A stretch of DNA of 64,000 nt, taken from the NCBI GenBank assembly GCA_029448655.1, contig JACCLO010000002.1:3906001-3970000 (forward strand), written 5' to 3'. Each line of letters starts with the position of its first letter. Within the stretch, counting starts at the first letter, position 1. Shown here in pieces: positions 15,846 through 62,488 of the stretch. Both the position numbers and the translations under genes were made by a program. The notes below the pieces were generated by a model. That model searched no databases. It saw only the letters and a list, made by a program, of their open reading frames with translations, and was not told the DNA's origin. This DNA comes from Wolfiporia cocos (lineage: Eukaryota; Basidiomycota; Agaricomycetes; Polyporales; Phaeolaceae).

Positions 15846-15950
15846 ACTTTATCTCATGTGCTAAAGTGTGTGCAGGGGAGTATCAAATTGGAAAATGTCA
15901 CAGATACAGCCTACCTGGATGATGTCATGGAGGGCGAATATACCCTGCCC

Positions 15951-28857: not shown

Positions 28858-29064
28858 TACTAATCCTGTACCGGCACTGTACTCGACGGGGTGCCGCCAC
28901 CGTTTTTTTTCCCCTTGAACTCATTGTATCATTACTGTGGTTGTAACCTGTAGTACATGTATCCATAAGTTTCTGTTTCGCGTGCTCTCTGAGGATCTGT
29001 GTTTAGACTGTGCCTCCTGTTACTGCCACTGGTACTGCTGTGCTCGTTAGTCCTTCCATGACTA

Positions 29065-35492: not shown

Positions 35493-35497
35493 CAGCA

Positions 35498-37279: not shown

Positions 37280-37445
37280 AAAAGCGAAGGTGCCACGGGC
37301 TACAATCTCTATTCTGCTGAGGAGGTACTAGTACCTCATGGAAAGCACATCACCATGGATACAGGCATAATGATATGAATGCCACCTGGTGTATATGGGC
37401 ACATTGCTCCATGATCCAGACTAGCCCTGAAGGGAGTCGACGTGG

Positions 37446-37955
37446 TGACGCGGTTTTCCGTGTCATGGACCCAACCCGTCTCTAACCACCGTAATTATGC
37501 TACAAGAATCACCTGATTACTTAGGAGTTGACGCGTTACCACTATGCCACCCGTTATACAGAAGGGTCACGTGATGTATTATGTAAGCATTTAGAGTTAG
37601 TACTTAGCGCTTTAGTAGGTGCATGCGCACAGGCCATGCGCTTTAGGGCAGCCTCGATAGTCAATGCTCGCTTGCATGTATATATACCACAGAGTCTGAG
37701 GCTTACACCTCAGACTTGTCAATTTGACTCTGGGGTGTTCATCCCCCTTACTTGCCATTCCTCTCTGCTTGTGTGTTGCCTGCCTGCTAGTCTGGGAGAA
37801 CCTCGACGCTGCTGTAGCACCTTAGGATTACCCTCTGACCTCGATACCTCAACGGTGTTGGGCCCTCTGGTGATCTGAAAGGCGGCTGTAGGGGAGTTGG
37901 GACTAGTGGTGGTGGGGTGTTAGGTGTTGAGGGTGTGGGTCACAAGTTTGTGACA
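37446..37955 (+). mobile_element. Solo LTR (510 bp) inside the dUTPase
   Basis: Starts TGACGCGG, ends TTTGTGACA, flanked by CGTGG (37441-37445, 37956-37960). TATATATA is followed by a 9-bp hairpin with loop CTTACA (37693-37716). Related in its middle to 13517-13921. Confidence 0.92.
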
Positions 37956-38092
37956 CGTGGAAGGTGGGATAGTAGACAAAGACTACACCAGCTGCCTCAA
38001 AGTCATACTGAATAATCAAACCGGAGCAGATTATCAGGTCGAGTATGGGGACAGGATCACCCGGTTCATACTCAAATGCAACATGACACCAG

Positions 38093-38632
38093 TGACACAA
38101 TACTCACTTGTTATGCTTGAGTTTGTTGAGGTGAAAGGTGGTGAAGCGAGTTTAGAGTGCAGCAGAGCAGATAAGGCTTAGATGCGTAGTCAAATAGATG
38201 AACTAGTCTGAGTCCTAAGCGACTCAGAGTACTCGTATATATACATGTAGGGTAAGACCCTAGTTACCGTAGGTAAGACTCATGGTACCGCTACACGGGC
38301 ATGTGATAAGTACGACCGAGCATGAGTCATATGCCGGTCAGGAATTGTAATCGTGCTGACTGTGGATCAGTAAGTGGCAGGTGATATAGCGACGTCATGG
38401 TCTAGACATGGAATGTCGGGGAAACTGGCAGAAGCTGATGGAAATGTATGGAACGTTCTTGTTATCTATGAGATAAGATATGTGTGCGTGTTCTGAGATA
38501 AGATAAGGGTCACGTGATATAAAGGACTTAGTTATGAGATTGTGGTTTAGTTAACTGGGGCTTGGCTGAAATAATGTGCTAGTAATTTCGGAAAAACGGG
38601 AGAAAATGCGGAAAAATGAGAAAACTATGACA
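38093..38632 (+). mobile_element. Solo LTR (540 bp) inside the dUTPase
   Basis: Starts TGACACAATAC, ends ACTATGACA, flanked by ACCAG (38088-38092, 38633-38637). TATATATACATG is followed by a hairpin TAGGGT-AAG-ACCCTA (38248-38262). I see no other copy of this LTR type in the window. Confidence 0.9.
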
Positions 38633-38642
38633 ACCAGACACC

Positions 38643-40045
38643 ATGATTGTCAAGTCAATCTGCAAAACCTGGCATGGGACACATGGATTTGGCTCGACCA
38701 GTGAAAAGCTTAGAGGAAGTGTGGTAGTAATCCAGACAGGAAACTGGGGATGGCAGATCAATGTACTGATTACCCTCCACTGCTCTGATGGACGAAGCCT
38801 CTTCACAAAGGCCCTTATCAATTCTGGGTCCACCGGATCAGTAATTAGTAAGTCCTACGTGGAGGAACACAGACTCAAGCAGATCCCACTCAACCGACCC
38901 ATCAAATTGTTCAACACTGATGGGTTGGCCAACACCATGGGGCTCATGATGCACTATGTCAAGCTCCAAATGCAGATCGACACACACTTGGAAACATGGA
39001 AGTTCCACATCATGGAACTTAGCTCCGTGGACATTTTCCTAGGCTTCAACTGGCTCGAAGATCACAACCCCTCTATCGATTGGAAGAAGAGGAAGATCAC
39101 CTTCACTTGCGACTGCAAACATGAGCAGATTGAGGAAGGAGATCATATTTATTATATTTTTGCTGATGCATGGATTCTAAACAGGGAAGAGTGTAGAGTG
39201 GATATCGCCAAACAAGTCCGTGCCACGAAGGCAACAGAAATCACCATCGTGACTGGCAAAACCACAGGAGCCAAGACTTTCAAGGAGATCGTATCCAAGT
39301 ACTTGCACAAATTCAAAGACATGTTTGAGGAAAAGGAATTCGACACACTCCTGGAAAGGCGGCTGTGGGACCATGCCATTGAACTCCCACCCAATTCGGA
39401 ACCATACATGGGCAAAATTTACACCCTTTTGTCATGAGAGCAAGAAGTGCTGGATGACTTCCTAGAAGAACAGTTGTGCACAGGCCACATCCACTCATCG
39501 AAGTCACCATTGGGGGTACCCTTCTTCTTTGTCAAAAAGAAAGACAGGAAACTACACCCTATCCAGGACTATCAAAAGTTGAACCAGATGACCAAAAAGA
39601 ACAAGTACCCACTCCTGCTTATCATGGAGCTGCTCAACAAGTTGAAACACACTAAGTACTTTTCTAAATTGGACATCAGATGGGGATACATGAATGTCCG
39701 AATCAAAGAAGGTGATGAGGAAAAAGCTGCCTTCATCACCAATCGAGGCCTATACGAGCCATTGGTGATGTTCTTCAGAATGTGCAATGCACCGGGCACG
39801 TTCCAGACTTTGATGAATGACATATTTAGAGACATAGTCCTCACAGGGAAGGTCATTGTATACCTAGACGACATACTTATTTTCACGGAGAACCAAAAAG
39901 GAAATCCTGAGATGGGTACTTCAGGTTCTCTGTCAAAATAAGTTGACCTGTAAACCAGAGAAATGTGAGTTCGAGAAACACGAAGTAGAATACCTTGGGC
40001 ACATAATCTCTCATGGGAAGATTTGTATGGACCCCACGAAGGTAG
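38643..40045 (+). pseudogene. Element A protease and reverse transcriptase, first part
   Basis: The protease site reads ALINSGSTGSVI, so the catalytic Asp is Asn. Further on are VDIFLGFNWLEDHNPSIDW and the RT entry [16 protein letters not shown] at 39435 stands for the Arg of the usual LSPREQ. RT then shows FFVKKKDRKLHPIQDYQKLN, FSKLDIRWGYMNVRI, MCNAPGTFQTLMND and the catalytic VYLDDILIF. A frame change after this leads to KPEKCEFEKHEVEYLGHIIS and the solo LTR at 40046. Confidence 0.85.
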
Positions 40046-40625
40046 TGTCACAGATTGCCCAGTGGGGTGATCTACGACGTCCCTTAGGCTGTATTGCAAA
40101 GGTGCCCCTAGGCTGCGGGGCTAACTCCTTACTTACTCCCTTTCCTCCACATTGCGCCTTGTATTTCTTACTAGACCACCTGACCCACTAGATTAGTGCT
40201 ATAGGGTAGCGCGCGCCTCAGGTACCTCACGTCATGGTCACACTAGTTACATGTTACCTTATGGTAGTTACTTGTCATGTGCCCTCTTAGTTACTGTGCA
40301 CAGGCCGTCACTTTAGGGCTAGACGTTTAGGTATCTGCAGCATGTATAAGTACGACGGAATGAGGACTTACTTCCTCATTCTTAAGATTCTCGACATTGG
40401 GGCTTGCCCCCCTTTCTTCTCGTTCTGCGTGATGCTGGCGTGCGACGGCCCCGCCCCTCTCTCTCTCTCGTACATGCTAGTCTGAGTATGTCTACTAGGG
40501 GTAGCCATGTGTTTCCACACGGTTTATGCCCGACGTTCACCGCTGCTGGGCGCGCATGTGTGCTATGGGTGTTATGGGCCCCCCGTCCTTGTAGGCCGGT
40601 CACACAGACCCGTAAGTCTGTGTCA
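40046..40625 (+). mobile_element. Solo LTR (580 bp) in RT
   Basis: Starts TGTCACAG, ends CTGTGTCA, flanked by GGTAG (40041-40045, 40626-40630). Hairpin GAATGAGGA/TCCTCATTC with loop CTTACT at 40358-40381 after GTATAAG. Same family as 16947-17540. Confidence 0.93.
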
Positions 40626-40630
40626 GGTAG

Positions 40631-40967
40631 CTGCAGTTGCCAAATGGCCAGCACCTTGGAACAAGAAAGAAGTGCAGTCCTTCATTGGATTTGCCAACTT
40701 CTACTGGAGATTTATACCCAAGTTCTCAATGGTAGCACACCCACTGATCAATCTGACCAAAGACAGAGATTGGCAGTGGGGTACGGCGAAACAGGAATGC
40801 TTCAAAAAAGATAGTTGTAGAAGCACCTGTACTAGGAATCCTGAATGATGACGACCATTTCTGCATTGAGGCAGACTCATCAGACTTTGCAGCCGGAGCC
40901 TGCCTCATGCAGAAACAGGACAGCATCTGGAAACCCATTGCATACCAGTCTAACATGTTGCTACCGG
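40631..40967 (+). pseudogene. Element A RT thumb and RNase H start
   Basis: Encodes WPAPWNKKEVQSFIGFANFY, then in a shifted frame HFCIEADSSDFAAGACLMQK, the start of the RNase H domain with its first Asp. The domain is cut at LLP by the next insertion and resumes at 42287. Confidence 0.75.
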
Positions 40968-42286
40968 TGTCCAACAAATAAATCGTTTCGCATGGGTATA
41001 GCATCAGAATTAACTACTACAATGCTAGGGGAATCTATACGTACCATAATCATCAAAATCCACCAAGCGGATCTCCCGGGATAGCCTCTGGAAGTTTGGA
41101 GTACCTATCTGGGAAGCTCAGCCACAGCACCGATCAAGTCACGTGACGGCGCTAATCCTTGTCACCTCCCCATTCCGCGACCTCTCTAACCCCCCCCCCC
41201 CAACACGGGCAGCGCGCCCCAGGAAATTTATATTAGATACTAGATACTTCAACGTATATCCAAAAATTTATACAAGATCCGGTGCAACCCTGGTCCCTCT
41301 ATAAAAACGAGTTTAATTACCCGCGGCTTTGCCACGGATGTCAATTGTCACTTAAGTATGATAACTAATAGAATAAGGGAAAAACATATTGTATGGCAAT
41401 GCGAGTCCACCCAACCCCCAGGGTGTGTGATCACCCTGCTGCACCTCGCTCAGCCACTTCCGACACCTTGCTGATGCTCGGTGTCATCGTCACTTCGCTT
41501 GTGGTGCCTCATAAACCTCCCGGTTACTCTTAAATTTTCTAGCAGGTATCTACAGTATAGGCCATTTACGTTACAACATCCCCGTGGTGCAGCACAGGGA
41601 GGATGCGCGAAACATGGTCGAAAGGACTTGACTTGAACGCTGCACACGCGTTGTAGGCGCCGTCCGTGGGAAATGGCACGGGGGTGGTGGCACGCGCCCT
41701 ATGGGCCAATGAACGCATGGTTGCCATGCGAGAACCACATGGTTTTCTTCCACGGCCCTTTAGTACTTAGATGTTTTACGGTATTTTATGCCCTGTTTCA
41801 TTTCTTATACTTTCTCCCACTACAATTGTGTTTCAGAAAACTGCCTATCCGCTCTGGATAAACCATACGATATTTTTTGATTGCTCTACATGACTCAAGA
41901 CCCCATAAATCTGCTCAGGAAAAATACTAGGGTACCTATCCACAGATACTGTAGTCCCCCATTTTTTCCTGTATATATACTGGCCCCAGTGGTCTCAGAA
42001 AAGGGAATCAGAGAACCAAGTTACCCAGCTGAAGTTCAGACGACTGAAGTGTCTCCCTGGAACGCCTACCGGACAGGCAGTGCATGAGGCACAAGTTCTA
42101 CAAGACTAAAGTCAACTTTCTCCTGAAGTAATCTGGTCACTCCTTCCAAATATTCTGCTGCACTCTATAGCCATCCTCCTTGTCTCCCCACTTGTGGAAC
42201 TACCCAAATAGACCCCACAGACAACTCAAATAGCCCAGTGCAATTTCAACACCAGGTGAAACCGAGCAATTTTATTTTGACCGACA
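40968..42286. mobile_element. 1.3-kb insertion of unknown type in RNase H
   Basis: The host frame stops at ...SNMLLP and resumes at AKRNYKIYDRELLAI. The insert has ends TGTCCAACAAATAAA and the near-complement TTTATTTTGACCGACA, with CCGG repeated on both sides (40964-40967, 42287-42290). It could be a short-TIR DNA element or an LTR-like relic. It contains C and G homopolymer runs and no recognisable gene. Left end could be shifted by a few bases. Confidence 0.55.
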
Positions 42287-43293
42287 CCGGCCAAGAGAAA
42301 CTACAAGATCTACGACCGAGAACTCCTAGCTATCATGTGTGCCCTAGATGAATGGCGACACTTTGTAATGGGTGCAAAACACCCTGTAGAAGTACTAATG
42401 GACCATAAGAACCTAGAATATTTTAAAACCCCACAGAAAATTAATCTGCAACAAGCCCGGTGGATGACGGAACTTGCTGAGTACAACCTACAACTCGTGC
42501 ACATCCCCGGAAAACTAATGGAAGGGCGGATGGACTGTCCTGACGAGGTGACCACGATGACAACAAGGATCACCTTGAAGGACAGGTCATCCTGAAGGAA
42601 TACCTCTTTGTCAAAGACAGTGAGGAACAACTACAATCCTCTTTCTACACCCTTCCTCACGGAATCATCCACAAGGAGGTAAAGGAAAGGGTCAAAGCGG
42701 AAGCCGCACTTTACGACAAGGAGGTAGTAGAAGGATCGATGGAAACGGCTGAGGACGGCCTATGCTACAGGAGGGGGAAATTGATCATTCCAAGAGACAA
42801 GGAATTAATCAGAAAAATCATTTCTTCATTCCACAACATGGTTTCAGCAGGGCACCCTGGCACAGAAAACACATACAAGGCCATACACCAATCATATTGG
42901 TGGCCAAAGATGCAAAATGACATCCACCAGTACATCAAAGCCTGTGTTAAGTGCCAATGAGCCAAGCCGGACCGGTTGAAGAGAGCGGCACCATTGAACC
43001 CAAACCCGACACCCGCACACAATTGGGAGAACATTTCCATGGACATGATAATGGGACTCCCCACATCCAATGGTCACAATGCAATCATTGTAGTAGTAGA
43101 CATGAAATCCAAGGACTATATCGTGGTACCAACCACAACTAAGCTAACAGCTGAAGGTTGGGCCAACATATTCGTAGATAAAGTATACGCACAGCATGGA
43201 CTACCAAAGAAAGTATTTAGTGATAGAGGACCACAGTTTGTATTGGACTTCATAAAAAACATTTACTGTAGATTAGGCATTGTCACAAGAAAC
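42287..43293 (+). pseudogene. Element A RNase H end and integrase, first part
   Basis: RNase H continues (KIYDRELLAIMCALDEWRHF, VLMDHKNLEYFKTPQKINLQ). After a frame change integrase follows: a HHCC-type finger (FHNMVSAGHPG ... SYWWPKMQ ... ACVKCQ), a TGA at 42958 where Arg is expected, SMDMIMGLPTSNGHNAIIVV with the first catalytic Asp, and FSDRGPQFV with the second. The frame then meets an LTR. Confidence 0.8.
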
Positions 43294-43890
43294 TGTGGTG
43301 TTATTTTTCCTGGTTTTTATGCTAAAATGCTGGTTAGATAGCCACTCGCTGGACCGCACGTGCATAGGTAGATAAAGATTTATCTTATCTTGCTCTCATC
43401 ACAGTCACTCATTATATCTTAAGTTACAGTGTTACCTAGTTACTGTAGCACATGACTCTTCTGCACACAGACCGTGCCTTTAGGGCAAGGCGGCCTAGTA
43501 GTTAGGGGCTAGCTGCATGTATATATACAGGCAATGTCTGGGGCTACTCCCCAGACTTAAGATTTCGGCCTAGGTGGTATATCCCCTGATCAACCTTTTA
43601 TACCCTCTGCCTGCTTGTCTGTGTGTCACCAGTGAACTGCTTTTGCGACAAGCCTGCTGCATCCTACTTAGGCATGGGGGCCTCTATTCATTGCATTTCA
43701 TACTCTATCTCTATTACTTGCTAGTCTGGGGGCGTTGCGGTACAGTCATGGTTTGTGACCTCAGGCAATATGGCAGTGCACCTCAGTAGGTGTGCCTTCT
43801 TGTTCTCCATCATTAGGAGGGTGGGGGGCTTTTAGGGTGGATATATGGGATATAGGGGTTCCCCGTGTAGGTGGGTCGGCATGGTGGTTA
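43294..43890 (+). mobile_element. Solo LTR in integrase (borders approximate)
   Basis: LTR-like sequence with TATATATA and a perfect 8-bp hairpin GTCTGGGG/CCCCAGAC (43536-43556) interrupts the integrase between the second Asp and the DPQTDRQMEHMNQ block. I could not fix its ends or a target duplication. At its right border is a 15-bp-arm palindrome (43871-43904, GTGGGTCGGCATGGT/ACCATGCCGACCCAC). Confidence 0.7.
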
Positions 43891-45081
43891 CCATGCCGAC
43901 CCACAGACAGACAGGCAAATGGAACATATGAACCAGGAACTAAAGGTTTACCTAAGATTATTTATTAATGACACACATACCAACTGGCTGGACTTACTTC
44001 CACTAGCTAGCTTCGCCTACAAATGTCATGTACATAGTAGCATGGGCTACAGCCCCTTTTACCTTACTCACGGATACCACCCATTTACAGGAGTGGAGGC
44101 ACCAGAGCTGGAAGGGGGGGGGTGGAAACCACCAAGGACTGGGTCAATCACATGCACACCATCAGCCAAACTGCTTCAAAGAACCTTGAATGAGCCAAGC
44201 TTTGTATGAAAGAGTACTATGACTGCAAACAAACCAACCCTCATGAGTACACTGAGGGAGACATGGTTTGGGTTGATGGGTGAAACATTAACATGGGAAA
44301 CCCTACGAAGAAACTTGATTTGAAGTGGTATGGACCGTACAAGATCGTGAAGAAGGTCGGGCATGGCACATACGAATTGGACTTACCCACAGACATGCGT
44401 GGGATATACCCAGTATTTAATGAAGTCCTACTACTGCCCTACGTACCACCCACCTCCCCAATCAGAACCACAATGAAAGGATGGAAAGCAATGACTCTCA
44501 CAGGCCTCTCAGGATCCTTGAATCCAGGGAAGACCGAGGGCAAGTCGAGCTAGAAGTCAAGTGGTCTGATGGGACCACGACATGGGAACGAAAACACGGA
44601 ATGACACCATGGCAAGACATAGTCACCAAGTACTTCAAGGACAGACCTACCGCACCTGGCCACCAGTGGAAAAACTGCAACACTGAGTGGGATCCCAAGT
44701 GGGAAGACCTCAAAAGGAAAAGTCAAGCCATGGGGTTAGCCAAGAACCCAGATTAGTACATAGTTCATGATGACATCAGCATCACGCTGCTGGAACAAGC
44801 CAAAGTTCCATTCTACATATATCCGAAGCAGCTCGTCACCAAGAACTTCTGGTTCTGCAACCCACAAACTCATGTAATTCAGTACAGAGTACGTGTCGGA
44901 AAATGCATAGAATCCACTATACCCAACAACCCGGGTTGGATCCATCCGATTCATTACACACTCCAAATAGCAAATGTGCACACCTGGCAGAAACACGAGC
45001 ATGACCATCCCTGTCATGTTGATCAACAATGGTATAAAGTGATTGCTGGGTGTGGGGACACACAGCTAGAAGAGGGGGTAC
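43891..45081 (+). pseudogene. Element A integrase end, chromodomain and polypurine tract
   Basis: Begins ADPQTDRQMEHMNQELKVYL (third catalytic residue, Glu), then WLDLLPLASFAYKCHVHSS and, in another frame, KLDLKWYGPYKIVKKVGHG. A TGA is at 44281. A chromodomain-like segment follows (ILESREDRGQVELEVKWSDG, TTTWERKHGM). A TAG at 44754 precedes a further open stretch up to the polypurine tract AGAAGAGGGGGTAC ending at 45081. Confidence 0.8.
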
Positions 45082-45620
45082 TGTTACGGATCGAATATCT
45101 GTTCAGCTGAAATAACTAAGTCGAGTTACTCAGCGTATCGAGTAGCACACTACTCGTCGGACTCAATGGAGTCGAGCGTCGATATACTAGCTGCAGGCTT
45201 AATTGCTCAAGCCTTTGAGAATGAGTATAAGATCCTTGTAATTCAACAAGGTCAAGCTGAGGAACTCAACCGGTATTTACCACAGGGTTTTATACTATGA
45301 TTCTGTAATCGGGGTCATAGTGTCCTTGGTACTGCTACCACTAAGTCCATAAGGCTAGTACGTTAGGATAACTAAGCTGAAACGTTGCAGTTGAGCACAA
45401 CAGTGGCTGAAATGCAGAAGTCCTGTGGTTAGACACAAGATATCAACTAGAACCTGATATGCCACAAGACCATGGGCATAGGGCTGTTGTACATGAAACG
45501 AGGGTCACTGGTTGGACAGGGAACCCTAGAAATAAACACGCGATACTACGGTTGAATGCTAAGTCCCCTTCTCCAGCGAGGCGTCAAAGATATTCAGATG
45601 GTTTCATACGGACCATAACA
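45082..45620 (-). repeat. 3' LTR of element C (539 bp)
   Basis: TGTTACGG...CATAACA on the plus strand. Compared with the 5' LTR I count 21 substitutions and one indel; 20 are transitions and 16 are at CpG sites. It abuts the polypurine tract of element A at 45081. Confidence 0.9.
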
Positions 45621-45665
45621 TCACCCCCCCCTCAAGCCTTCATCGCCCTCGATGAAATCCAAGCA

Positions 45666-47836: not shown

Positions 47837-47841
47837 CCTTC

Positions 47842-50484: not shown

Positions 50485-50632
50485 TAGAAATACTATCATC
50501 TTTTAACTCTGAAATAGAGTGCGAGTGTGATCTATAACGAAAGTCGCAGCTTTCAAAACCCAATCCCTTCTTAAGAATCTAAGACAATGAGTAACCGGAA
50601 ACTAACATTCGTCACAAACAGATTCACAAAAA

Positions 50633-52633
50633 ATGTCTTCCACCTCCTCCGTCAGCACTCCCCTCGCTCCCCGCAAGATGCGCCTCCGCTCAGAAGGCCC
50701 GGTGACACCGGTAGCTGGTCCCTCGGGAACCCAGCAACTGGTGACGCTGGAGCACCTAAGCGAGGGAGAGGAAGAAGAAGAAGAGGAAGGAGAAGAGGAA
50801 ATGCCGGAGTTCGCTCCCCCGCAAAGGGAATCTCCGACCAACCCCATGGGAACACGCCCAGGCTCCCCCATTGCCGGATATCCACCGGCTCGTCGAACTC
50901 GCCCTATCGGGCCCGCCACCACCCTGGAAATGGAATTTTCGGGTCCGACACGACAAACCAATGTCGCTGTCGAGAACAACCTCAAAGCGTACCTCCCTGA
51001 GGAGGAACACCACAAGGTGGATGGGTCCATACATGGGCCAATCATCGATGCCGCCGTACAACGAAGTGCGGCCATAAGCCATGACACCACCGACATCCTA
51101 GGTCGAATGGTGCACGCCCGCCTGGAGCGTATCCATGGAAGAATCGACTCCCTGGTTGGGCAATCCAGGGCAATCGAACAAAAAGCCCAAGACGAGCTAC
51201 ACGAGGCGGTCAATTCGGTCCGCAACGAGGTCTTGTCCACTCTGGTGGACCTCGGCAAGGAACTCCGACAGGAGTACACCGCCAAGTTCACCACGCTGGA
51301 AAAGGAGCTCCGGAAGGACTACCGGTCCCGCCTGGACGACCTCGAGGATGCCTTCGCCGAGCGCATGGAGAAGGTTGACGAGGAACTCCGGAGGATTCGC
51401 AAGAATCCCTCCGTTCCCAACCCTCCCGGTGTCCGCACGCCCCCGGAAGACCCGGCACCGGCCCCCGGTCATGCTCAAGCCAGAGCAGCCGAGGCCGCTG
51501 CCGCCGCACAAGCTGCAGCCGCTGCTGCAGCAGCCGTCGCCCCGCAGATTCCAGGTCTGCCTCAAAACCTGAAAATTCCCCCTCCCCCCGAATTCTCTGG
51601 GTCATCTGGAAAGGTGACTGCACAGGAATGGGTGGAGAAGATGGGCCTGTACTTCGGAACGCTCAGGGTCTACGACGACCATGACCGTATCACCACGGCC
51701 CTCTTCCGCGTCACAGGGGACGCATACAAATTTTTCTCGCCGCTCATCAAGAAGGCAGGAAACGGTGAACCTCTCGGCACCTGGGAGGACTTCACCAAAT
51801 CCGTAATGGTGCAATATGGGAAAATGACGGATAAGGAGATCGCGAAGAAGGAAATTCGCGGCTATTACGGCACGAAGGGCAAGGAACTGGCAGAATCGAA
51901 CTACTTCAATTACTGCGAACGGTTCCGCACCCTCGGCCGTCTCTCTGAAACCGCCAACGAGACTCTGGTGTGGGAATTCACCGAGACTCTCCCCGAAAAG
52001 GTTAAGGACACCTTAAACGTCCTCGGCAAGACTCCGTTCTTCAAGGCCCCGACCGACATCGAACCTCTGATCGACTTCGCCCTGGAAATGTACCAAACGT
52101 CATATCCGGACAAGATCAAGGGCTCGATCTTCGAGAAGGCCAGCAAGAAGGACTCGGCACCTGCCGAAAAGAAGGAGACGTCCTCCGCTTCTGCAAAGAA
52201 GTCGGAGAAGAAAAAGGACAAGGGAAAGGCGCCCGCCAAAGCCCCCGCCGACACCACCAACGCCGTCTGCACTTACTGCAAGCAGACGGGACACTATTTC
52301 AACAAGTGTCCTAAGCTTGCCGCGGACAAGGCTGCGGGAACGTTCGTGCCTGCTGCTCAGCGGGCCGAACAACAAAGGGCGAAGGATGCAGCTGCCGCGT
52401 CTGGAAAGACCACGGCTGCTCCTTCGGGTAGTGGAAAGGGACAGGCTTCTGGCAAGAAGCCGTACTCGGCGCCCCCCGCGGATGGCAAGACGTATCGTGC
52501 CCGAACGATCTGGGAAGAAGTGACAGCTGACTCAAGCTCAGCAGGACCCTCGGCCCCCGCCACCACCGTCGCCAATGTCGGGACCATCTCGGTTCCCCTC
52601 GCCCCAACCACACGTCTCGAAGACGTTCTGTGA
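50633..52633 (+). CDS. gag: Element B Gag (666 aa)
   Basis: Structural protein of the virus-like particle. N-terminus MSSTSSVSTPLAPRKMRLRS, an acidic run (GEEEEEEEGEEEMPE), a coiled-coil region at about residues 150-265, an Ala-rich linker, and a retrotransposon Gag core (GKVTAQEWVEKMGLYFGTLR, WEDFTKSVMVQYGKMTDKEI, YFNYCERFRTLGRLSETANE). A Lys-rich segment and one CCHC zinc knuckle, CTYCKQTGHYFNKC, follow. The knuckle has the standard CX2CX4HX4C spacing and should bind genomic RNA. Ends with TGA at 52631. The downstream pol frame is shifted by +1 and has a stop at 52854-52856, so how pol is expressed is unclear. Confidence 0.92.
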   Translation: MSSTSSVSTPLAPRKMRLRSEGPVTPVAGPSGTQQLVTLEHLSEGEEEEEEEGEEEMPEFAPPQRESPTNPMGTRPGSPIAGYPPARRTRPIGPATTLEMEFSGPTRQTNVAVENNLKAYLPEEEHHKVDGSIHGPIIDAAVQRSAAISHDTTDILGRMVHARLERIHGRIDSLVGQSRAIEQKAQDELHEAVNSVRNEVLSTLVDLGKELRQEYTAKFTTLEKELRKDYRSRLDDLEDAFAERMEKVDEELRRIRKNPSVPNPPGVRTPPEDPAPAPGHAQARAAEAAAAAQAAAAAAAAVAPQIPGLPQNLKIPPPPEFSGSSGKVTAQEWVEKMGLYFGTLRVYDDHDRITTALFRVTGDAYKFFSPLIKKAGNGEPLGTWEDFTKSVMVQYGKMTDKEIAKKEIRGYYGTKGKELAESNYFNYCERFRTLGRLSETANETLVWEFTETLPEKVKDTLNVLGKTPFFKAPTDIEPLIDFALEMYQTSYPDKIKGSIFEKASKKDSAPAEKKETSSASAKKSEKKKDKGKAPAKAPADTTNAVCTYCKQTGHYFNKCPKLAADKAAGTFVPAAQRAEQQRAKDAAAASGKTTAAPSGSGKGQASGKKPYSAPPADGKTYRARTIWEEVTADSSSAGPSAPATTVANVGTISVPLAPTTRLEDVL

Positions 52634-52856
52634 AGAACACACCAGCCCCGCAGCGGCTGGGAGTGTACAGCGCCCCGAAGAAGCGCACCTCTACGAAGAG
52701 GCTTCACAGAGACCCCTTATCTTGTGGGAAGATAAGGCGGTCGTACGTCACCCGGTATCCCATCTCGGTATATTCGGTAACTCGGCAATGGACTTTGCCC
52801 GGAGGACAAGGACACTAGCTACACGTGCCCCTCCTGTACAATACTTCTATCCCTGA

Positions 52857-55800
52857 CCCGCTCGCGCTAAGTTTTTCACTTTGTATAATGTACATGGAAA
52901 CGATTCTCGAGACGACAATAAATCGTTCTCTATCGAAGTGGAACTGTGGGTATATGGAAAGAAAGTCAACGCCATGGCATTAATCGACACCGGTGCATCA
53001 ATAAGCGTCATTGATAAGAAACTCGTACATGAGGAAAAGTTAGTCACTCAAAAACTACCTTCGCCTCTCGAGATTCGCAACGCCGACGGTACCTCTAATA
53101 CCGCCGGTAATATCAATATGGCAGTAAAAGCTTATATGGTGCACGAGGAACACAAGTCCACCGAATTCTTGTACGTAATGGACGTACAGAATGCGGATGT
53201 GATCCTCGGATATGACTGGTTCCTGAAACACAACCCGGACTTCAATTGGCCGGAAGGAACCTTCACATATCGGTGTACGGAAAAATGCAAACATGGCAAA
53301 CGGGTTTCGATTTCTGAGGAAGAGGACGAAATCGAACCCCGCAACATCTATCAGATCATCAACGACTTTCCAATAGATTTTCTCGGCTTAGAGGAGCCTG
53401 AGAATCCCTTTGTCGCTTGGGTGAACACCCTTGACGAAGGAACGGAACTCCTTATCGATGCCATTCAGTCGATAACGGAGAAGTCGGATGATGAATTCCT
53501 GACAGATGCGGATCTCCAGAAATGGAAATCCTTGGTTCCGGAGGAATACCAGGAGTTTGGTCCCACGGTATTTTCTCAACGCGCATCCGAAAGAATGCCC
53601 GAACGGAAACCATACGACCACGCCATCGACTTCCCCGATGACGCGGTACTACCGCCCCCGAGTAAGGCATACAAGATGTCTCCTCAGGAAGCGAACTCGC
53701 TAGATCAGTGGATTCAGGAAGAGTTACGGAAGGGCTACATCCGACACTCGAAATCTCCGATCGCGAGCCCGGTCTTCTTCGTCCCTAAAAAAGACGGCGG
53801 AGCCCGAATGGTAGTCGATTACCGAAAAGTAAACGACTTGACCATTAAAAACAGGTACCCTCTCCCACGCATAGACGAGCTTATCGATAAGCTTAGCCAG
53901 GCTTCGATATTTACGAAGCTCGACTTGCGTTGGGGTTACAACAACGTAAGAATCAAGGAGGGAGATGAATGGAAGACCGCATTCATTACGCCTAACGGCC
54001 TTTACGAAGCTGTAGTCATGTACTTCGGTTTTTGTAATGCACCCAGCACGTTCCAACACATGATGAACGATATCCTAGGTGACCTTATCAGAGAAGGAAA
54101 GGTCATTGTCTACCTAGACGACATCCTTGTGTTCGGAAACGACCTGTTGGAACACCGTCGTATTGTCAAGCAAGTATTACAAATCTTGCAAGACAACGAC
54201 TTGTTCGCGAAGCCTGAAAAGTGCTTCTTCGAACAAAGCAGTATTGAATACCTGGGAATGATCATTTCCAAAGGAAAAGTCGAAATGGACCCTAAGAAGG
54301 TAGCCGGTGTCATGGACTGGCCTACACCTGCCAAGGTGAAGGACGTCCAAGCCTTTGTTGGCTTCGCCAACTACTACCGTCGGTTCATTAAAGACTTCTC
54401 CAAAGTGGTTAAGCCGTTAACCGAACTGTCCAAGAAAAACACGCAGTGGAACTGGGGACCCGAACAAGCGGAAGCCTTCCAAACTCTCAAGGAAGCTTTC
54501 ACATCGGCTCCAATACTCCGGATCCCAGATCAGGAGTCCCCGTTCCGCGTGGAAGCGGATTCTTCCGATTACGCAACTGGTGCAGTGCTATCACAATACT
54601 CTTCGGAGGATAAGCTCTGGCACCCGGTAGCCTTTTACTCGAAATCTCTATCAGCACCCGAAAGGAACTATGAGATTTACGATAAGGAGTTGCTCGCAAT
54701 CATCCGCGCTCTAGAGGAATGGAGACATTACCTCGAGGGACACCCACACAAATTTGAAGTATGGTCGGATCATCTCAATCTGACATATTTCAAATCGGCA
54801 CAACGGCTAACCCGGAGACAGGCACGTTGGAGTCTTTACCTGACAAGGTTCAACTTCACCATGTGTCACAAACCCGGTAAAACAATGCTTACGGCTGATC
54901 CTCTGTCACGGAGGCCAGACCATGAAGAGGGGGTGGAACTCGACAATCGCGATCAAATTTTGCTGAAACCGGAATACTTTACGGTTAGGGCGCTAGAAGC
55001 GTCACAGCAGGAGATACAATCAGGCGACGAGGACCTTCTCCGACAAATCCGACAAGCCCTCATGGACGATCAAATTACCAAGGATTACCAGGAACTACTG
55101 AAAAGTGGTCCCAAGGAATTCGGTAAAGATCTCCAGGAATGGAACATGGAGGCCGGATTACTCCTCAGACGAGGAAAAGTGTACGTTCCAAAAGAGCCTA
55201 AGGAATTGCGCACGAAGATTCTGGAGTTACATCATGACCATGTGACGGCCGGACACTTCGGACGATGGAAGACCTATGAACTTCTATCACGTAATTACTG
55301 GTGGCCTGGAATGACCACGATGGTAAAGCAATACGTGGAAGGTTGTGACACATGTCAACGCATGAAGAACCACAACCAGACCCCGTACGGACCCCTGCAA
55401 CCGCTCCCAGTTCCGGAAGCACCTTGGGACACCGTCACAATTGACCTTATCGTCCACCTACCACCCAGCGGCGAATTGAAACAATTCAATGCTATTATGG
55501 TAATAGTGGACCGGCTTACCAAACGAGCACACTTCATTCCCACGTCAGACAAGATAACGGCAAAAGAATTAGCGAACCTCCTGTACCTTCGGATTTATCC
55601 GAACCACGGACTTCCGAAACAAATCATTTCGGATAGAGGCCCGCAATTCGCAGCCGCCTTATTCAAGGGATGGTGTGAGCAATTGGGAATCCAACGGTCA
55701 ATGACAACCGCCTATCACCCGCAAGCGGATGGCCAGACGGAGAGAGTTAACCAGATCCTGGAACAATATCTTAGATGTTACATCGATGTTATTCAGAAGG

Positions 55801-56363
55801 ATAACTGGTCATGGTTTCTCCCAACGGCTGAATTCGCGTACAACAACGCGGCTAGTGAGACAACAAAGAATAGCCCATTCTTTGTCGAACTAGGAAGGCA
55901 CCCTAATGCAGGACCTACGAATTTACGTCCAACACCATACACGGACCTAAATGTCATTGCTTACGAACGATGGTCAGCACAAGAACAAGCTAAGGCAGCA
56001 ATGAAACTGGCTGCTGAACGCTGGTCTTGGTACTACGATCAACATAAGCGCTCGGTACCGTTTAAAGTCGGCGACAAAGTTCTCGTTGACGCCCGTAGCT
56101 GGCAAGACTCCGAAAGAAGTCTTAGTCCACGCTATTTGGGACCATTTAGGATAATTGAACAATTATCTCCGGTCACCTTTAGGGTACACATGGACGAGCA
56201 ATACAGGGCTTACCACCCAGTATTCCACGCTTCCAAGTTGGTCATGTACAAGGACCCGGTGCATCAGAAAAAACCAGAGCCTCAACCAGAAATGGTCGAC
56301 GGCGAGGAAGTTATGGGAAGTCGAGAAGATCTTAGATCATCGTCTCCGCGCAGGAAGAGTTGA
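52857..56363 (+). CDS. pol: Element B Pol: protease, RT, RNase H, integrase
   Basis: The frame is open from just after a stop at 52854; the first in-frame ATG lies immediately before the protease site, at AMALIDTGASISVI (about 52975). [51 protein letters not shown] and the catalytic VYLDDILVF near 54120. RNase H: FRVEADSSDYATGAVLSQYS, NYEIYDKELLAIIRALEEW, SDHLNLTYFK. Integrase: HHDHVTAGHFG ... CDTCQRMK zinc finger near 55230-55370, then catalytic Asp in VTIDLIVHLP, Asp in ISDRGPQFA and Glu in DGQTERVNQ. Ends at 56363, but the chromodomain continues in the +1 frame. Confidence 0.93.
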   Translation, partial: PARAKFFTLYNVHGNDSRDDNKSFSIEVELWVYGKKVNAMALIDTGASISVIDKKLVHEEKLVTQKLPSPLEIRNADGTSNTAGNINMAVKAYMVHEEHKSTEFLYVMDVQNADVILGYDWFLKHNPDFNWPEGTFTYRCTEKCKHGKRVSISEEEDEIEPRNIYQIINDFPIDFLGLEEPENPFVAWVNTLDEGTELLIDAIQSITEKSDDEFLTDADLQKWKSLVPEEYQEFGPTVFSQRASERMPERKPYDHAIDFPDDAVLPPPSKAYKMSPQEANSLDQWIQEELRKGYIRHSKSPIASPVFFVPKKDGGARMVVDYRKVNDLTIKNRYPLPRIDELIDKLSQASIFTKLDLRWGYNNVRIKEGDEWKTAFITPNGLYEAVVMYFGFCNAPSTFQHMMNDILGDLIREGKVIVYLDDILVFGNDLLEHRRIVKQVLQILQDNDLFAKPEKCFFEQSSIEYLGMIISKGKVEMDPKKVAGVMDWPTPAKVKDVQAFVGFANYYRRFIKDFSKVVKPLTELSKKNTQWNWGPEQAEAFQTLKEAFTSAPILRIPDQESPFRVEADSSDYATGAVLSQYSSEDKLWHPVAFYSKSLSAPERNYEIYDKELLAIIRALEEWRHYLEGHPHKFEVWSDHLNLTYFKSAQRLTRRQARWSLYLTRFNFTMCHKPGKTMLTADPLSRRPDHEEGVELDNRDQILLKPEYFTVRALEASQQEIQSGDEDLLRQIRQALMDDQITKDYQELLKSGPKEFGKDLQEWNMEAGLLLRRGKVYVPKEPKELRTKILELHHDHVTAGHFGRWKTYELLSRNYWWPGMTTMVKQYVEGCDTCQRMKNHNQTPYGPLQPLPVPEAPWDTVTIDLIVHLPPSGELKQFNAIMVIVDRLTKRAHFIPTSDKITAKELANLLYLRIYPNHGLPKQIISDRGPQFAAALFKGWCEQLGIQRSMTTAYHPQADGQTERVNQILEQYLRCYIDVIQKDNWSWFLPTAEFAYNNAASETTKNSPFFVELGRHPNAGPTNLRPTPYTDLNVIAYERWSAQEQAKAAMKLAAERWSWYYDQHKRSVPFKVGDKVLVDARSWQDSERSLSPRYLGPFRIIEQLSPVTFRVHMDEQYRAYHPVFHASKLVMYKDPVHQKKPEPQPEMVDGEEVMGSREDLRSSSPRRKS

Positions 56364-56757
56364 ATACAGAATCCGATGGAAGGGATTCGGTATCAATGAC
56401 GACTCCTGGGTACGCGAAGCGGATCTCGACTCGGCATACGACATTCTGCAGGAATACAAGGCTTCACACCCTATTCCAATGCAGGATGTCCCCCTCAGGC
56501 GATCAGCTAGAAGGAAAGAAGCAGTTCATGTCTTCGACCCTGACAGCGACGACTGGGAAGCCGACGAATGCACGTGGCCAGACGACTGGCCGCAGTATCG
56601 CGAAGAATTTGCGAAGGATCCTAAGCAACGCATGGTTAGACACCCCGACGGGGGATGGATGTCAGCGGACATTAACCAAAACGCGGACTTGAAAATCGTA
56701 GTCGGTGAAGGCGGCCGAATGCCGGAAAAAGGGAACCAAGGACTCGGTTGGGTTTGA
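56300..56757 (+). CDS. Element B chromodomain (shifted +1 from Pol)
   Basis: WEVEKILDHRLRAGRVEYRI, RWKGFGINDDSWVREADL and DSAYDILQEYKASHP form a complete chromodomain, which in chromoviruses directs integration to marked chromatin. Pol reads ...VDGEEV at the join. A single extra base in GTTATGGGA separates it from WEVEK, so the join looks like one inserted nucleotide or a +1 shift. An acidic linker (DPDSDDWEADECTWPDDWPQ) follows and leads to the dUTPase, which begins in yet another frame. Confidence 0.9.
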
Positions 56758-57112
56758 CCTGTACACTGCAACAGGCGACGTTCTGCCAGCTCACGGGCAG
56801 ACAGAATACAACACCAAACTGAAGATCCAGGTACCTTTCGGCACTTACGGACGTATCGCCCCCCGCTCTAGTCTCGCACGCAAAGGCATAGACGTAATGG
56901 GTGGCGTTATCGACCACGATTATCAAGGCGAAGTAATCATCATTCTCCGGAATCACTCCGACATATCTATCGATATTCGGGCCGGTGATAAGATTGCCCA
57001 GCTCATCTGCGAAGTTGCTAAGGACCCGCACATTACGCTACACGGAAAATCTTACTTTGAAAAGATTAAATCCGAGCGCGGTACTGGTGGATTCGGCTCC
57101 ACAGGAAAGTAA
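56690..57112 (+). CDS. Element B dUTPase (C-terminal to chromodomain)
   Basis: All five trimeric dUTPase motifs are present with key residues: motif 1 GTKDSVGFDLYTATG, motif 2 FGTYGRIAPRSSLARKG, motif 3 GGVIDHDYQGEVIIILRN, motif 4 RAGDKIAQLIC, motif 5 RGTGGFGSTGK. The catalytic Asp of motif 3 (IDHDY) and the Phe-bearing flexible motif 5 are intact, so the enzyme should be functional. It is joined to the chromodomain by another single-base +1 shift in GAAAAAGGGAACC (EKG then TKDSV). Its place after integrase and chromodomain is unlike the other two elements here. It ends at TAA 57110-57112, 39 bp before the 3' LTR. Confidence 0.92.
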
Positions 57113-57151
57113 TCGTTCCATTAGGGACAATGAAACCTGAAGAGGGGGTAA

Positions 57152-57850
57152 TGTCACAGATTTGGGACATGCCACTATTTTTCCCGTATTTTTACCTATT
57201 TATCTGGTATTTCTACGACCTTGTAGACATTTACGCTGCTAAGCGCCCGTCTACACGTACACGCAACCAAACAACACGTACACAACGCGGTATACGTCCA
57301 CTTGTCATAACAACACGTACATAACACGTTTGTACGCGTCAATGACTCAGCGGACTAACCTCCGGTGTCACGCGCCTTACTCATATCCCGGTACCGGGCT
57401 ATGTCAGTACAATTGGATAAGCGGCCCGCTCGTTATCACATGCCAATGCCCTTACGATTACTCATATCCCGATACCGGTATATAAGAATCACATGCATGG
57501 CTTACTAACGTAGCTACAGCCACTTCCACAACATGGACCTACGGTCCAAACAAACGATCTTACTGGTGCGGCCATTACCGGCGCACATGGTCTATTGTAG
57601 TTTACGACTTAACCATATTAGTTATGTCTGCGCACAGACCACCTTCATGTTTGGCTCCCTTACCGGTAACCAAACAAAGCATGTATATAAGTAGGGCTAT
57701 CACTGCGGATAAGCCTTAGATTTGTTCTCTGCATTCGCACAGTTACATATCATCTCTGCTTGCGCCCACTAGCCTCCTCACCAACCTCCAGCAACTCCTT
57801 CAAGTCGCTTATTAGGTTATAGTGTGAGTCCCACAGTCTAGTCTGTGTCA
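57152..57850 (+). repeat. 3' LTR of element B (699 bp)
   Basis: Differs from the 5' LTR at three sites: TCCGGTGTC versus TCCGGAGTC, ATGCCCTT versus ATGACCTT, and CAAACGATC versus CAAACAATC. Preceded by the polypurine tract GAAGAGGGGGTAA. Confidence 0.95.
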
Positions 57851-57855
57851 CCTTC

Positions 57856-58570
57856 TGGGTCGGGATCAGCTGCAATGGCGCCTTTGTCAGGCTTCGGTCA
57901 GGTTTCATCTGCTGACAGACTGCGCAGCCTTTGACGTACTCCACCACACTCTTTTGCAAGTCAGGCCACCAGAAGTGTTCTTGCACTTTCAGGGTCGTCC
58001 CCCAGATCCCGGGGTGGCCTGCCACAATTGGGTCATGATATCTAGAGATGATGTCCTTTCTCAGGCTAGAGTCCCTTGGCACGTACATCCGTCCCATATA
58101 CAAGAGGACCCCTTCGCTGTACTGCCAGTCTTCCATTACTGTCCTTAAAGGGGGCGGCTTCCCCTGTTCAAGGGCATGGAGTCCCTGTTCCGCAATCGGG
58201 TAGAAGGGCTTCACAATCTTGATCCGATCAATGATCAGGACTTTGATCGCGTGAACGAATAGGGTATCGGGCAGCATTTGGATGTCTTTGTTGTCATGTT
58301 CAGAGCTGTCTAGATTCATGAGGCGTGAGAGGGTGTCTGCCATTACCAGTTTCTTTCCCAGGACGTGCTGCAGCCGGATGTCAAATTGGGATAGTAGCAG
58401 ATGCCATCTTGCTTGTCTCCGATTCAATCTCTGGGTGCTCCACCAATACGTAAGGTTCTGGTGATCACTCCTGATCAGGATCTGATGTGTACCCCCTTCT
58501 AGAAGGTGGCGCCATTCTTCCAGCGCACGAACCACTCCTAGGAGTTCTCGATCATAGATTTCGTAGTTTC
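57856..58570 (-). pseudogene. Element C RNase H and integrase zinc finger
   Basis: NYEIYDRELLGVVRALEEW, RSDHQNLTYWWSTQRLNRRQ and LSQFDIRLQHVLGKKLVMAD are RNase H. YHDPIVAGHPG ... HFWWPDLQ ... CAVCQQMKPDRS is the integrase zinc finger. The frame reaches LQLIPTQKV at the target site of element B and resumes at 47836. The codon just upstream (58569-58571) is TGA, where the family has Arg (PAE-R-NYEIYD). Confidence 0.85.
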
Positions 58571-59890
58571 ATTCTGCTGGGGTGAGGGACTGTGACAGGT
58601 ACCCTACCAGTCACTCATTTCCATTATCGTCTTTTTGTTTGAGCACTGCTCCAAGGGCGAACTGTGAGGCGTCAGTTTCCAGAACAAAGGGTTTCTCCTT
58701 GTCGGGGAGGAGTAGCGCAGGGGCTGTTATGAATTTGTCTTTTAGGAATTCAAATGCCTCATTCTCTCGATTCGTCCACTTGAACCCCGTGCCTGTGGCG
58801 GTTTTTGTGAGAGCGATGATTGGTCACACATGTATGGAATAGTGGTCGATGAATTTTCTGTAGAAGTTCACAAACCCTAAGAAAGAGCGGACCCCCTTGA
58901 CATTCCGTGGGGCCGGCCAGTCGTGGATCCCCTTGAGCTTGGCAGGGTCCATCTGGACCTGACCGGGGGTGATTACGAGCCCAAGGAATTCGACCCTTTC
59001 CACTCCGAATGCGCATTTTTTGGGTTTCACGAACAACTTTTCTTCAGCCAGTTTGCACAGGACCTGTCACTCCCACTCGTTATGGGTTGTCTGATCTGGG
59101 GAAAAGATGAGGATATCGTCCATGTAGACTAGCACCCATCCTTCAGCAATTTCGTCTTTCAGTATTTCATTCATCATAGCTTGAAATGTTGCCGGTGAGT
59201 TGCACATTCCAAAGAACATTACTGTCGGTTCGTAGAGGCCGGCATTAGTCTTGAATGCGCCCTTTCATTGGTCACCTTCTCGGATTCACACATTGTTGTA
59301 TCCTGCCCGTAGGTCCATTTTGGTGAATATCTTCACCCCCTTTAGCTTCTCGATGAGTTCCAATATCAAGGGCAGAGGGTAGGCATTCTTAACCGTTCCC
59401 TCATTCAGGTACCAATAGTCTTGGCAAGGCCTCAGTCCTCCATCTTTCTTTGGGACGAAGAAGGTGGGGGAAGCCATGGGGGATTTCGATGGTCGAATGA
59501 ATCCTTTGGCAAGGTTTTCTGCCAGGAATTCGTCCATGGCCTTCTGTTCCCTGGGGGACAGCGAGTACACCTTGCAGTCTCGGGGCACGAAATCGGGCTT
59601 CAGTTCGATGGCGTGATCCCACAGTCTTGATAGGGGGAATGTGGCTGCAGCTTTCTTGCTGAAGACGTGTGCATAGTCTTTCAGGTGTTCAGGGATGGTG
59701 TCTTCCATGGGTCCCTCTTTTGCCACTTCAGAGAGCTCTTGGGATTTTGTCATCACCTTGTGTATGTGGGAGAGGCCGGCGACACTTCGCCGGAATTGTT
59801 TCTGGGTCTTGGTCTGGGAGGCGATCAGCTTCTTGGTTTGGACAAATCTCCTTAGTAGCTGGTATTCTCCATCTGAGATGGGGTTTTCGG
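58571..59890 (-). pseudogene. Element C reverse transcriptase
   Basis: From 59680 leftward: [72 protein letters not shown], then a TGA (59286-59288), MFFGMCNSPATFQAMMNEIL, the catalytic VYMDDILIF, KPKKCAFGVERVEFLGLVIT and FLGFVNFYRKFIDHYS. Several further TGA codons interrupt the frame. The linker between dUTPase and RT (59890-59690) is charged and helical. Confidence 0.85.
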
Positions 59891-60290
59891 CTGGTCGCTG
59901 AGTGTCGGTAGAACCGAAACCCTTTTCCCCTCTCTTTGTTTCATCAAGTTCCTCTACCTGGACCACTTCGGGGGTGAGGGCCAGCTCGAATATTATTTGC
60001 GCAATACGCATTCTGGGAACGATGCGGTTGGGTGTTGTCGACTGGTTGAATAGGATGACTTGGACTTCTCCGTGGTAGTCGGGGTCGATTACCCCCACTC
60101 CGACCGTGAGCCTGTGTTTGAGTGTGAGGCCCGAGCGCGAGGCTATCCTTCCATAGGATCCTTTTGGAATCTCCATTCAAACTCCAGTGGGGATCAGTTT
60201 CCATGCCCCAGGAGCGATTTCATCATCCTTTGAAGCATATAGGTCATATCCAATGGCACCGTCAGTTCCCCACGTTGGGAGCTTTCCTTC
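59891..60290 (-). pseudogene. Element C dUTPase domain (between protease and RT)
   Basis: Motif 1 GAIGYDLYASKDDE, motif 2 [12 protein letters not shown], motif 3 [18 protein letters not shown], motif 4 RMRIAQIIF (usual GD lost), motif 5 [14 protein letters not shown] at 60177-60179 cuts it between motifs 1 and 2. The frame then runs on into the RT region without a stop, so dUTPase and RT were one polypeptide. Confidence 0.85.
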
Positions 60291-62448: not shown

Positions 62449-62488
62449 TTGCACTTTGATAAGTGAGCCTGGTAAGAGCTTGACCTTC

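Follow-up and report, generated by a model that had tools for sequence, protein, structure and literature searches.

Three Ty3/gypsy families of Wolfiporia cocos with a dUTPase domain at three positions of the polyprotein

Three Ty3/gypsy elements, here called A, B, and C, lie in the 64,000-nucleotide stretch of the Wolfiporia cocos genome that we analyzed (the window), and each carries a dUTPase domain in a different slot: before the protease (PR) in A, between protease and reverse transcriptase (RT) in C, and after the chromodomain in B. The elements very probably represent chromovirus families with a movable dUTPase module that would lower dUTP during reverse transcription, with enzymatic activity, release by the protease, and benefit to the element as predicted parts of this reading. 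The three positions are not new, having been published in 2010 for gypsy elements of Postia placenta (PMC2864245). What our sequence comparisons add is three pol lineages that each have dUTPase-less relatives, the non-monophyly of both the C-terminal dUTPases and the PR-RT dUTPases, and putative slot changes. One genome with three placements at high copy, together with relatives whose kindred dUTPases sit in different slots, offers natural experiments on Pol module insertion and makes a general question testable: what leads unrelated retroelements to gain a dUTPase time and again, and why do a few linkers tolerate one?

Elements and domains in the window

The domains of the three elements were placed by Pfam and tblastn matches (Table 1), in agreement with an earlier sequence-only reading that had proposed three gypsy elements with a dUTPase at three positions. 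Blastn with A-family copies found no 3' LTR of element A, whose body ends at about 45081-45084, where element C starts. Element C matches its relative L017 at 84-85% identity over nearly its whole length (blastn). Element B inserted inside C and is flanked on both sides by CCTTC, a target duplication. The LTR at 34957-35492 was considered as A's own and ruled out, since A-family LTRs match 33290-33667 and this LTR is of the C type with its own 5-bp flanking repeat.

Table 1. Positions of the three elements and their parts in the window
Feature	Position	Strand	Remarks
Element A	33290..45084	+	Decayed, with insertions; 5' LTR 33290-33667; matched by blastn to L009 and L011 of the A family
Solo LTR, C type	34957..35492	-	Inside element A; 89-90% to C LTRs; CAGCA on both sides
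Element A dUTPase	37253..38705	+	Three pieces (37253-37444, 37957-38100, 38634-38705); stops and intervening DNA
Element A protease ORF	38631..39437	+	PF08284 E 2.7e-10; dUTPase directly upstream or touching
Element A reverse transcriptase (part)	39438..39941	+	PF00078 E 1.7e-19
Element A integrase (H2C2 and core)	42544..43341	+	PF17921 E 1.7e-20; PF00665 E 4.4e-7, under its cut-off
Element C	45081..63030	-	LTRs 62488-63030 and 45081-45620, 95.9% identical; split by element B
Element C integrase core, SH3, chromodomain	46128..47843	-	PF00665 E 2.7e-10, PF24626 E 5.9e-16, PF00385 E 4.6e-15
Element B	47842..57850	+	LTRs 47842-48540 and 57152-57850, 99.57% identical; nested in C
Element B extra ORF, 333 aa	49483..50484	+	Upstream of gag; no Pfam match
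Element B gag	50606..52633	+	PF03732 E 0.004, PF13696 zinc knuckle E 0.009, both under cut-off
Element B pol (protease, RT, RNase H, integrase, SH3)	52857..56363	+	PF08284 E 2.3e-8, PF00078 E 1.6e-34, PF17917 E 3.5e-35, PF17921 E 6.7e-25, PF00665 E 7.7e-11, PF24626 E 2.5e-11
Element B chromodomain	56155..56757	+	PF00385 E 4.8e-12; second frame in window copy
Element B dUTPase, complete, C-terminal	56702..57112	+	PF00692 E 1e-33; third frame in window copy
Element C RNase H (part) and integrase H2C2	57750..58568	-	PF17917 E 2.5e-15, PF17921 E 8.9e-20
Element C dUTPase	59901..60293	-	Between protease and RT; internal stop
Element C protease region	60464..60829	-	Upstream of dUTPase; named by colinearity with L017
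Element C gag (part)	61066..61572	-	PF03732 E 1.4e-4, under its cut-off

The dUTPase profile PF00692 (homotrimeric type) scores 116 bits in B and 82 bits in C against a curated cut-off of 22, and the window copy of A was scored solely through tblastn with its relatives' dUTPases, to which its pieces are 62-80% identical (L009 and L011). The domain had been read as complete in B and broken in A and C, and so it is: in B it follows PR-RT-RH-IN-SH3 and the chromodomain and covers the 129-position profile from 4 to 129; A is reduced to three pieces with stops; and in C the part beyond an internal stop matches at E 4.3e-23 and continues into RT, the C domain being 88% identical to L017 over 131 aa (tblastn). 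The protease region of C has no Pfam match on its own, nor has the 333-aa ORF of B, which is of equal length in L021-L023. Pol, chromodomain, and dUTPase of the window copy of B lie in three different frames; in L021 and L023, two other B copies, a single frame of 1528-1532 aa holds all three. In A-family copies, gag to integrase lie in a single frame; a frame of 2254 aa takes in the domains from dUTPase through integrase, with about 820 residues ahead of the dUTPase.

Family membership and selection

All three families show the PR-RT-RH-IN order and LTRs of Ty3/gypsy chromoviruses. A chromodomain after the integrase matches Pfam in B and C; for A and Y, a further family of this genome, Pfam matches none of the 4 scanned, and a profile built for this analysis matches 6 of 8 A/Y copies. 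Each dUTPase order is repeated in many other genome copies, and 8 of their polyproteins, alike in Pfam domain order, score 112-129 bits with PF00692. The dUTPase frame is open to near full length at 109 of 150 scored places for B, 50 of 143 for A, and 44 of 132 for C, which upholds the earlier view of the arrangement as a lineage trait. Over the 150 B places, the window copy and one other stand at 100% and the rest at 97-98%. Assembly error or chance motifs, looked for as a source of the arrangement, gained no support from the window or from copies elsewhere in the genome and can be dismissed for the window elements, given the Pfam E-values (1e-33 in B, 4e-23 in C), the identical orders in many other copies, and the target duplications flanking B and the solo LTR.

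The five motifs that define dUTPases are full in A, Y, and B in an alignment of the four own-genome families, and C is substituted in motifs 2 (SRSGLT or GRSGNT) and 4 (PGMRIAQ), so that C could be a weak enzyme. Motif 3 (GV-I/V-D-x-DY-x-G), with its catalytic Asp (PMC4531489), is present with the other motifs in all four. Three pairs of A copies give a dUTPase dN/dS of 0.06-0.09, and five pairs of C copies give 0.04-0.17, some pairs having members in common; these values are near that of PR (0.02-0.20) and somewhat higher than that of RT (0.02-0.06 where defined). The dUTPase domains of the A and C families are kept by selection.

Slot changes among related elements

RT and integrase trees resolve three lineages, A+Y, B, and C, each with dUTPase-less relatives. 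Two relatives depart from the slot of their nearest kin. P0247, with its dUTPase in the PR-RT slot, groups with P0249, P0164, and P0198, which have the C-terminal slot, in the RT (support 100), integrase (100/99), and dUTPase trees (99/99, and 99/90 without the mixture model). The integrase tree places P0248 inside the C pol clade (100/99). The sister of its dUTPase (98/93 in one tree, 81/90 in another) is found in P0268, which has the PR-RT slot and falls inside the C clade in the RT tree. The dUTPase of P0248 occupies a fourth slot, between RNase H and integrase (RH-IN), shared with P0264; because the RT tree joins P0264 and P0285 through long branches, these two were given no weight, and P0279, a Symbiodinium protein without copia domains, was not counted as copia.

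A single clade of C-terminal dUTPases is rejected (AU p 0.0007), as is one of PR-RT dUTPases (AU p 0.00015); the three C-terminal rows together without P0247 are not rejected (AU p 0.261). P0247 and P0249 are 73% identical in dUTPase and 59% in RT, a mismatch that suggests exchange. Only a single contig is known for each of P0247 and P0248, so either may be a chimaera. If both contigs are sound, two pol lineages would each have related dUTPases in two different slots, and at least two moves or exchanges of the domain would have taken place among these relatives.

Origin of the dUTPase domains

How often was a dUTPase captured? The eleven groups put to AU tests, which were named after quick trees had been seen, rest on one common alignment, and its 134 columns are too few to separate one capture from several. 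The dUTPases of A, B, and C as one clade are neither established nor rejected (p 0.236), and a clade of all 25 element rows is likewise not rejected (p 0.111). Comparing dUTPase and pol trees points to slot changes among relatives if the P0247 and P0248 contigs are sound; of the repeated capture or domain movement suggested from sequence alone, movement or exchange finds support in the trees of relatives, and neither is shown for A, B, and C themselves.

Independent captures, in which A, B, and C would each have filled its slot with a cellular or viral dUTPase gene taken up on its own, have a little less than an even chance of being correct. Such separate acquisition has been proposed before (PMC2864245), and the dUTPase-less relatives in each pol lineage agree with it. 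The three domains differ in their nearest solved structures, which are 3c2t, 3ca9, and 3c3i for A (143-148 bits, 3c2t at 148), 3so2, 4oop, and 2pc5 for C (131-133 bits), and shrimp 7dlv, 5f9k, and 3ecy for B (104-105 bits); their identity among themselves, 40-46%, also does not exceed that with the host gene (42-53%). The non-rejection of a single A+B+C clade weighs against separate uptake, as does the movement or exchange seen instead in related lineages. Nor does the free tree join any of the three to the host gene L167, whose place is among cellular enzymes of ascomycetes (94/85). A recent host origin is disfavored, although AU does not reject host with A/Y, B, or C (p 0.233, 0.168, and 0.129). 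As to a viral source, the best viral-contig matches reach 47% (A-like) and 51% identity (C-like), with no confirmed match to B among viral contigs.

A single ancient uptake by an early chromovirus, with the domain then inherited vertically, changing slot and being lost many times, would accommodate the unrejected all-element clade, the two pol lineages that each have related dUTPases in two slots, and the common absence of the domain, which was not found in 133 of 187 listed polyproteins. We regard it as rather unlikely, since in the free tree neither the C pol clade nor the B pol clade has dUTPases that form a group (AU p 0.046 and 0.132, the former non-significant once corrected for eleven tests) and the discordant divergence of P0247 and P0249 suggests exchange. 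A further possibility, which we put forward tentatively, is that fungal chromoviruses carry the dUTPase as a transferable cassette, swapped between distinct lineages and re-inserted in any of four linkers (before PR, PR-RT, RH-IN, and after the chromodomain), with slots set by polyprotein-processing tolerance and not by descent.

Entry 2d4l, which we take to be the betaretroviral MPMV enzyme, is absent among the best 60 of 67 solved-structure matches of the A dUTPase, which scores up to 123 bits with entries that we take to be cellular eukaryotic enzymes. With B, 2d4l reaches 47 bits, and 1f7d and 1duc, presumably lentiviral, reach 66 and 62 bits versus 104-105 for eukaryotic cellular entries. 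The trees contained no retroviral sequence.

Proposed function

Removal of dUTP during reverse transcription is the likely function. In each of the three chromovirus-type families, a trimeric-type dUTPase forms one polyprotein module, able to occupy any of several inter-domain linkers. Released by the element's own protease, the freed enzyme would lower dUTP near the reverse transcriptase, which would leave little uracil in the cDNA. The benefit may fall mainly in non-dividing hyphae, where host dUTPase would be low. Over longer time, the module has probably been gained or lost repeatedly and, through moves inside lineages or exchange among elements, has probably come to occupy other slots. 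That the fold is kept for a non-enzymatic role, in Gag-Pol assembly or signalling, seems improbable: the C family departs from the usual letters in motifs 2 and 4, and bovine immunodeficiency virus is described as needing a dUTPase-related gene product without dUTPase activity (PMC4261571), but A, Y, and B keep the catalytic Asp and five motifs.

Comparison with known systems

In Novikova et al. 2010 (PMC2864245), the dUTPases of PosPlaTy3-3, PosPlaTy3-4, and PosPlaTy3-5 of Postia placenta are placed at the Pol N-terminus, the Pol C-terminus, and between PR and RT, the same slots as in A, B, and C; the likeness is one of described slot. That paper, on a different host, argues for independent acquisition, and here movement or exchange among relatives is supported too. 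It also cites other fungal gypsy elements with a dUTPase, namely Metaviridae of Phanerochaete chrysosporium (Novikova and Blinov 2008) and Tmt1 of Tuber (Riccioni et al. 2008). The PR-RT slot of C recurs in a basidiomycete report (reference 30 of PMC5408684, as cited there) and in bdelloid Juno, Vesta, and TelKA, lineages without a chromodomain (PMC5408684).

The order in A equals that of betaretroviruses, with the dUTPase between gag and PR, as had been proposed. The betaretroviral enzyme is described as a trans-frame NC-dUTPase made by frameshifting (PMC4531489), whereas gag to integrase share a single frame in A-family copies. The solved-structure scores, which favor 3c2t and entries taken as cellular, do not support a kinship between A and betaretroviruses. 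The C-terminal slot of B, once thought unusual, is on record for Postia placenta (PMC2864245) and for ERV3 (ERV-L type) retroviruses, whose dUTPase is described downstream of integrase (PMC4299795), and non-primate lentiviruses are reported to use the RH-IN slot of P0248 and P0264 (PMC4531489). Lentiviruses of this kind infect vertebrates, unlike the fungal elements studied here. ERV3 is not known to have a chromodomain, which B does have. Three of the four dUTPase linker slots are also used by retroviruses.

Three nested gypsy elements with dUTPase at different positions of Pol

The assembled genome (64.43 Mb in 76 contigs) contains, within the window, three Ty3/gypsy elements, A, B, and C, which are nested or abutting. 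Judged by position, B is the youngest insertion, and relative to C its LTR identity says the same. No 3' LTR of element A was found at the end where element C starts. Gypsy elements make up 25.49% of the Wolfiporia hoelen SS20 assembly, according to PMC9503964.

Elements and other features in the window and in related regions (L-numbers) of the same genome
Feature	Position	Strand	Remarks
Element A	33290 to ~45084	+	starts with 5' LTR at 33290
Element C	45081-63030	-	LTRs 95.9% identical
Element B	47842-57850	+	LTRs 99.57% identical; CCTTC on both sides; inserted in C
C-type solo LTR	inside element A		CAGCA flanks
Third ORF of B (333 aa)	49483-50484		upstream of gag
Same ORF, B copy	L021:577-1575		upstream of gag
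Inverted repeat (204 nt)	31104-31307, 31602-31805		arms 94% complementary
Similar to inverted repeat	L021:9155-9865		74-81% similar; adjoins B copy
Imperfect local direct and inverted repeats	3471-3970, 15931-16111, 21568-22542, 29040-29328		elsewhere in window
A-family dUTPase	L009:3430-3816		

The dUTPase domain of B is complete (E 1e-33) and lies downstream of the chromodomain; that of C lies between the protease (PR) region and the reverse transcriptase (RT), contains a stop, and shares 88% identity with a relative across 131 aa; that of A is in three pieces upstream of the protease. The sequence-only reading had called the domain complete in B and decayed in A and C, which is borne out. 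Pol, chromodomain, and dUTPase occupy three different frames in the window copy of B and a single frame of 1528 aa in other B copies. Among the separate proteins listed as matches, a partial Wolfiporia cocos sequence comes nearest to the B dUTPase (78%). When 8 polyproteins overall were scanned with Pfam, the order was dUT-PR-RT-RH-IN in A and also in a second family of this genome, Y (L014-L016), PR-dUT-RT-RH-IN-chromo in C, and PR-RT-RH-IN-chromo-dUT in B.

The three positions, which are the main point of the finding, are already published: for Postia placenta, Novikova et al. 2010 (PMC2864245) place dUTPase at the amino terminus of Pol in PosPlaTy3-3, at the carboxyl terminus in PosPlaTy3-4, and between PR and RT in PosPlaTy3-5, and suggest independent acquisition. 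In the open-licence papers surveyed, we found neither a fungal gypsy element with dUTPase in the RNase H-integrase linker nor movement of dUTPase within a lineage.

Abundance and constraint of dUTPase-bearing copies

A first search yielded 1428 dUTPase candidates in the genome, and the 150 of these that were scored all reached E 5e-37 or better. Near-full-length open frames were found at 50 of 143 scored places for A (at least 2190 aa; best 143 of 1821 candidates), 109 of 150 for B (at least 1515 aa; best 150 of 1388), and 44 of 132 for C (at least 1700 aa; best 132 of 2397), a few of the A and C rows so counted containing a stop. Among 16 regions taken for analysis, L024 has its pol frame broken in pieces and L016 has a separate gag frame.

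For dUTPase, three A-family pairs gave dN/dS values of 0.06, 0.09, and 0.09, and five C-family pairs gave 0.04, 0.17, 0.08, 0.13, and 0.07, close to PR (0.02-0.20) and somewhat above RT (0.02-0.06 in pairs with a defined dS). With members in common, the pairs are not independent, and dS is saturated in the two A-Y pairs. For B, only near copies were compared: the window copy and L021 differ at 10 nt in 130 codons, too few for a selection test, with all three amino-acid differences within the first three codons. The third ORF of B-family elements has the same length in L021-L023 and gave no Pfam match.

dUTPase slots among related polyproteins

Profiles made from these families were applied to 187 polyproteins from protein searches (P-numbers) and 15 own-genome frames. 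Among the 187, dUTPase lay between PR and RT in 19, at the C terminus in 9, before PR in 2, in the RNase H-integrase slot in 2, before RT with no PR seen in 3, and after PR in 1 piece lacking RT, counts that mirror the search design (A relatives being the best 120 of 958) and not natural frequencies. The profile search found no dUTPase in 133. Another 18 had dUTPase with no gypsy PR or RT found, namely, the Symbiodinium protein P0279 and 17 (from ena, jgi, and one from ncbi) combining PF00692 with PF07727 or PF13976, which we take to be copia-type domains; these 17 (P0269, P0270, P0282, P0286, P0289, P0290, P0294-P0296, and P0298-P0305) appear to be dUTPases in Ty1/copia-like elements. The RNase H-integrase slot occurs in two gypsy-type polyproteins, P0248 (891 aa, a chromovirus) and P0264 (1609 aa, a distant element), and is the same as that of non-primate lentiviruses, as described in PMC4531489.

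Slot does not follow dUTPase descent

A+Y, B, and C form three pol lineages, both in a tree of RT-RNaseH-integrase made by a quick method (61 rows, 561 columns) and in a tree of integrase made by a careful one (37 rows, 355 columns). Each has dUTPase-less members: P0127, P0131, and P0133 beside A+Y; P0252 (both trees) and P0254, P0260, P0262, and P0263 (integrase tree) around B; and P0266 beside C. In the tree of the dUTPases themselves (42 rows, 134 columns) the deep forks are not settled; A, Y, and P0284, all with an N-terminal slot, form a clade (100/99). In AU tests picked after the quick trees had been seen, single clades of all 9 C-terminal dUTPases (p 0.0007) and of all 11 PR-RT dUTPases (p 0.00015) were rejected, indicating that slot does not follow dUTPase descent. 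There may have been one capture or several: the tests did not reject a single clade for A+Y+B+C joined by P0284 and P0243 (p 0.236), for the full set of 25 element rows (p 0.111), for the C-terminal rows within the B pol clade (p 0.132), or for the four N-terminal rows (p 0.319), and p 0.046 for the PR-RT rows within the C pol clade was nonsignificant after correction.

Slot changes among relatives rest on P0247 and P0248, each known from a single contig. P0247 carries dUTPase between PR and RT, and its pol relatives P0249, P0164, and P0198 carry it at the C terminus; the four form one clade by RT (100), integrase (100/99), and dUTPase (99/99, or 99/90 when model and rows were changed). P0247 and P0249 are 73% identical in dUTPase and 59% in RT, the reverse of close pairs (66 versus 88% for A-Y, 67 versus 87% for P0164-P0198), which hints at exchange. 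This reading is weakened by far pairs, which often have dUTPase more alike than RT, and by the alternative topology, which is not rejected (p 0.261). P0248, with dUTPase between RNase H and integrase, clusters with P0199 and C in the integrase tree (100/99), and its dUTPase is sister to that of P0268 (62% identical; 98/93 and 81/90 in two trees), which has the PR-RT slot and falls within the C clade by RT.

Most likely, judging from retroviruses (PMC4531489) and from what is known of dUTPase biochemistry, the element protease would free the dUTPase, which would then trim dUTP during reverse transcription. In B the domain comes last in the polyprotein, its motif 5 forming the free C terminus as in cellular dUTPases, so that one cleavage or none may be enough for release.

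The best solved structures for the A-family dUTPase were 3c2t, 3ca9, and 3c3i (143-148 bits), presumably chlorella-virus dUTPases, followed by 2okb (130 bits), presumably the vaccinia enzyme, and then cellular enzymes; its best IMG/VR matches reach 46-47% identity. The 204-nt inverted repeat is perhaps a MITE or DNA transposon, as suggested by the similar sequence beside the B copy in L021.
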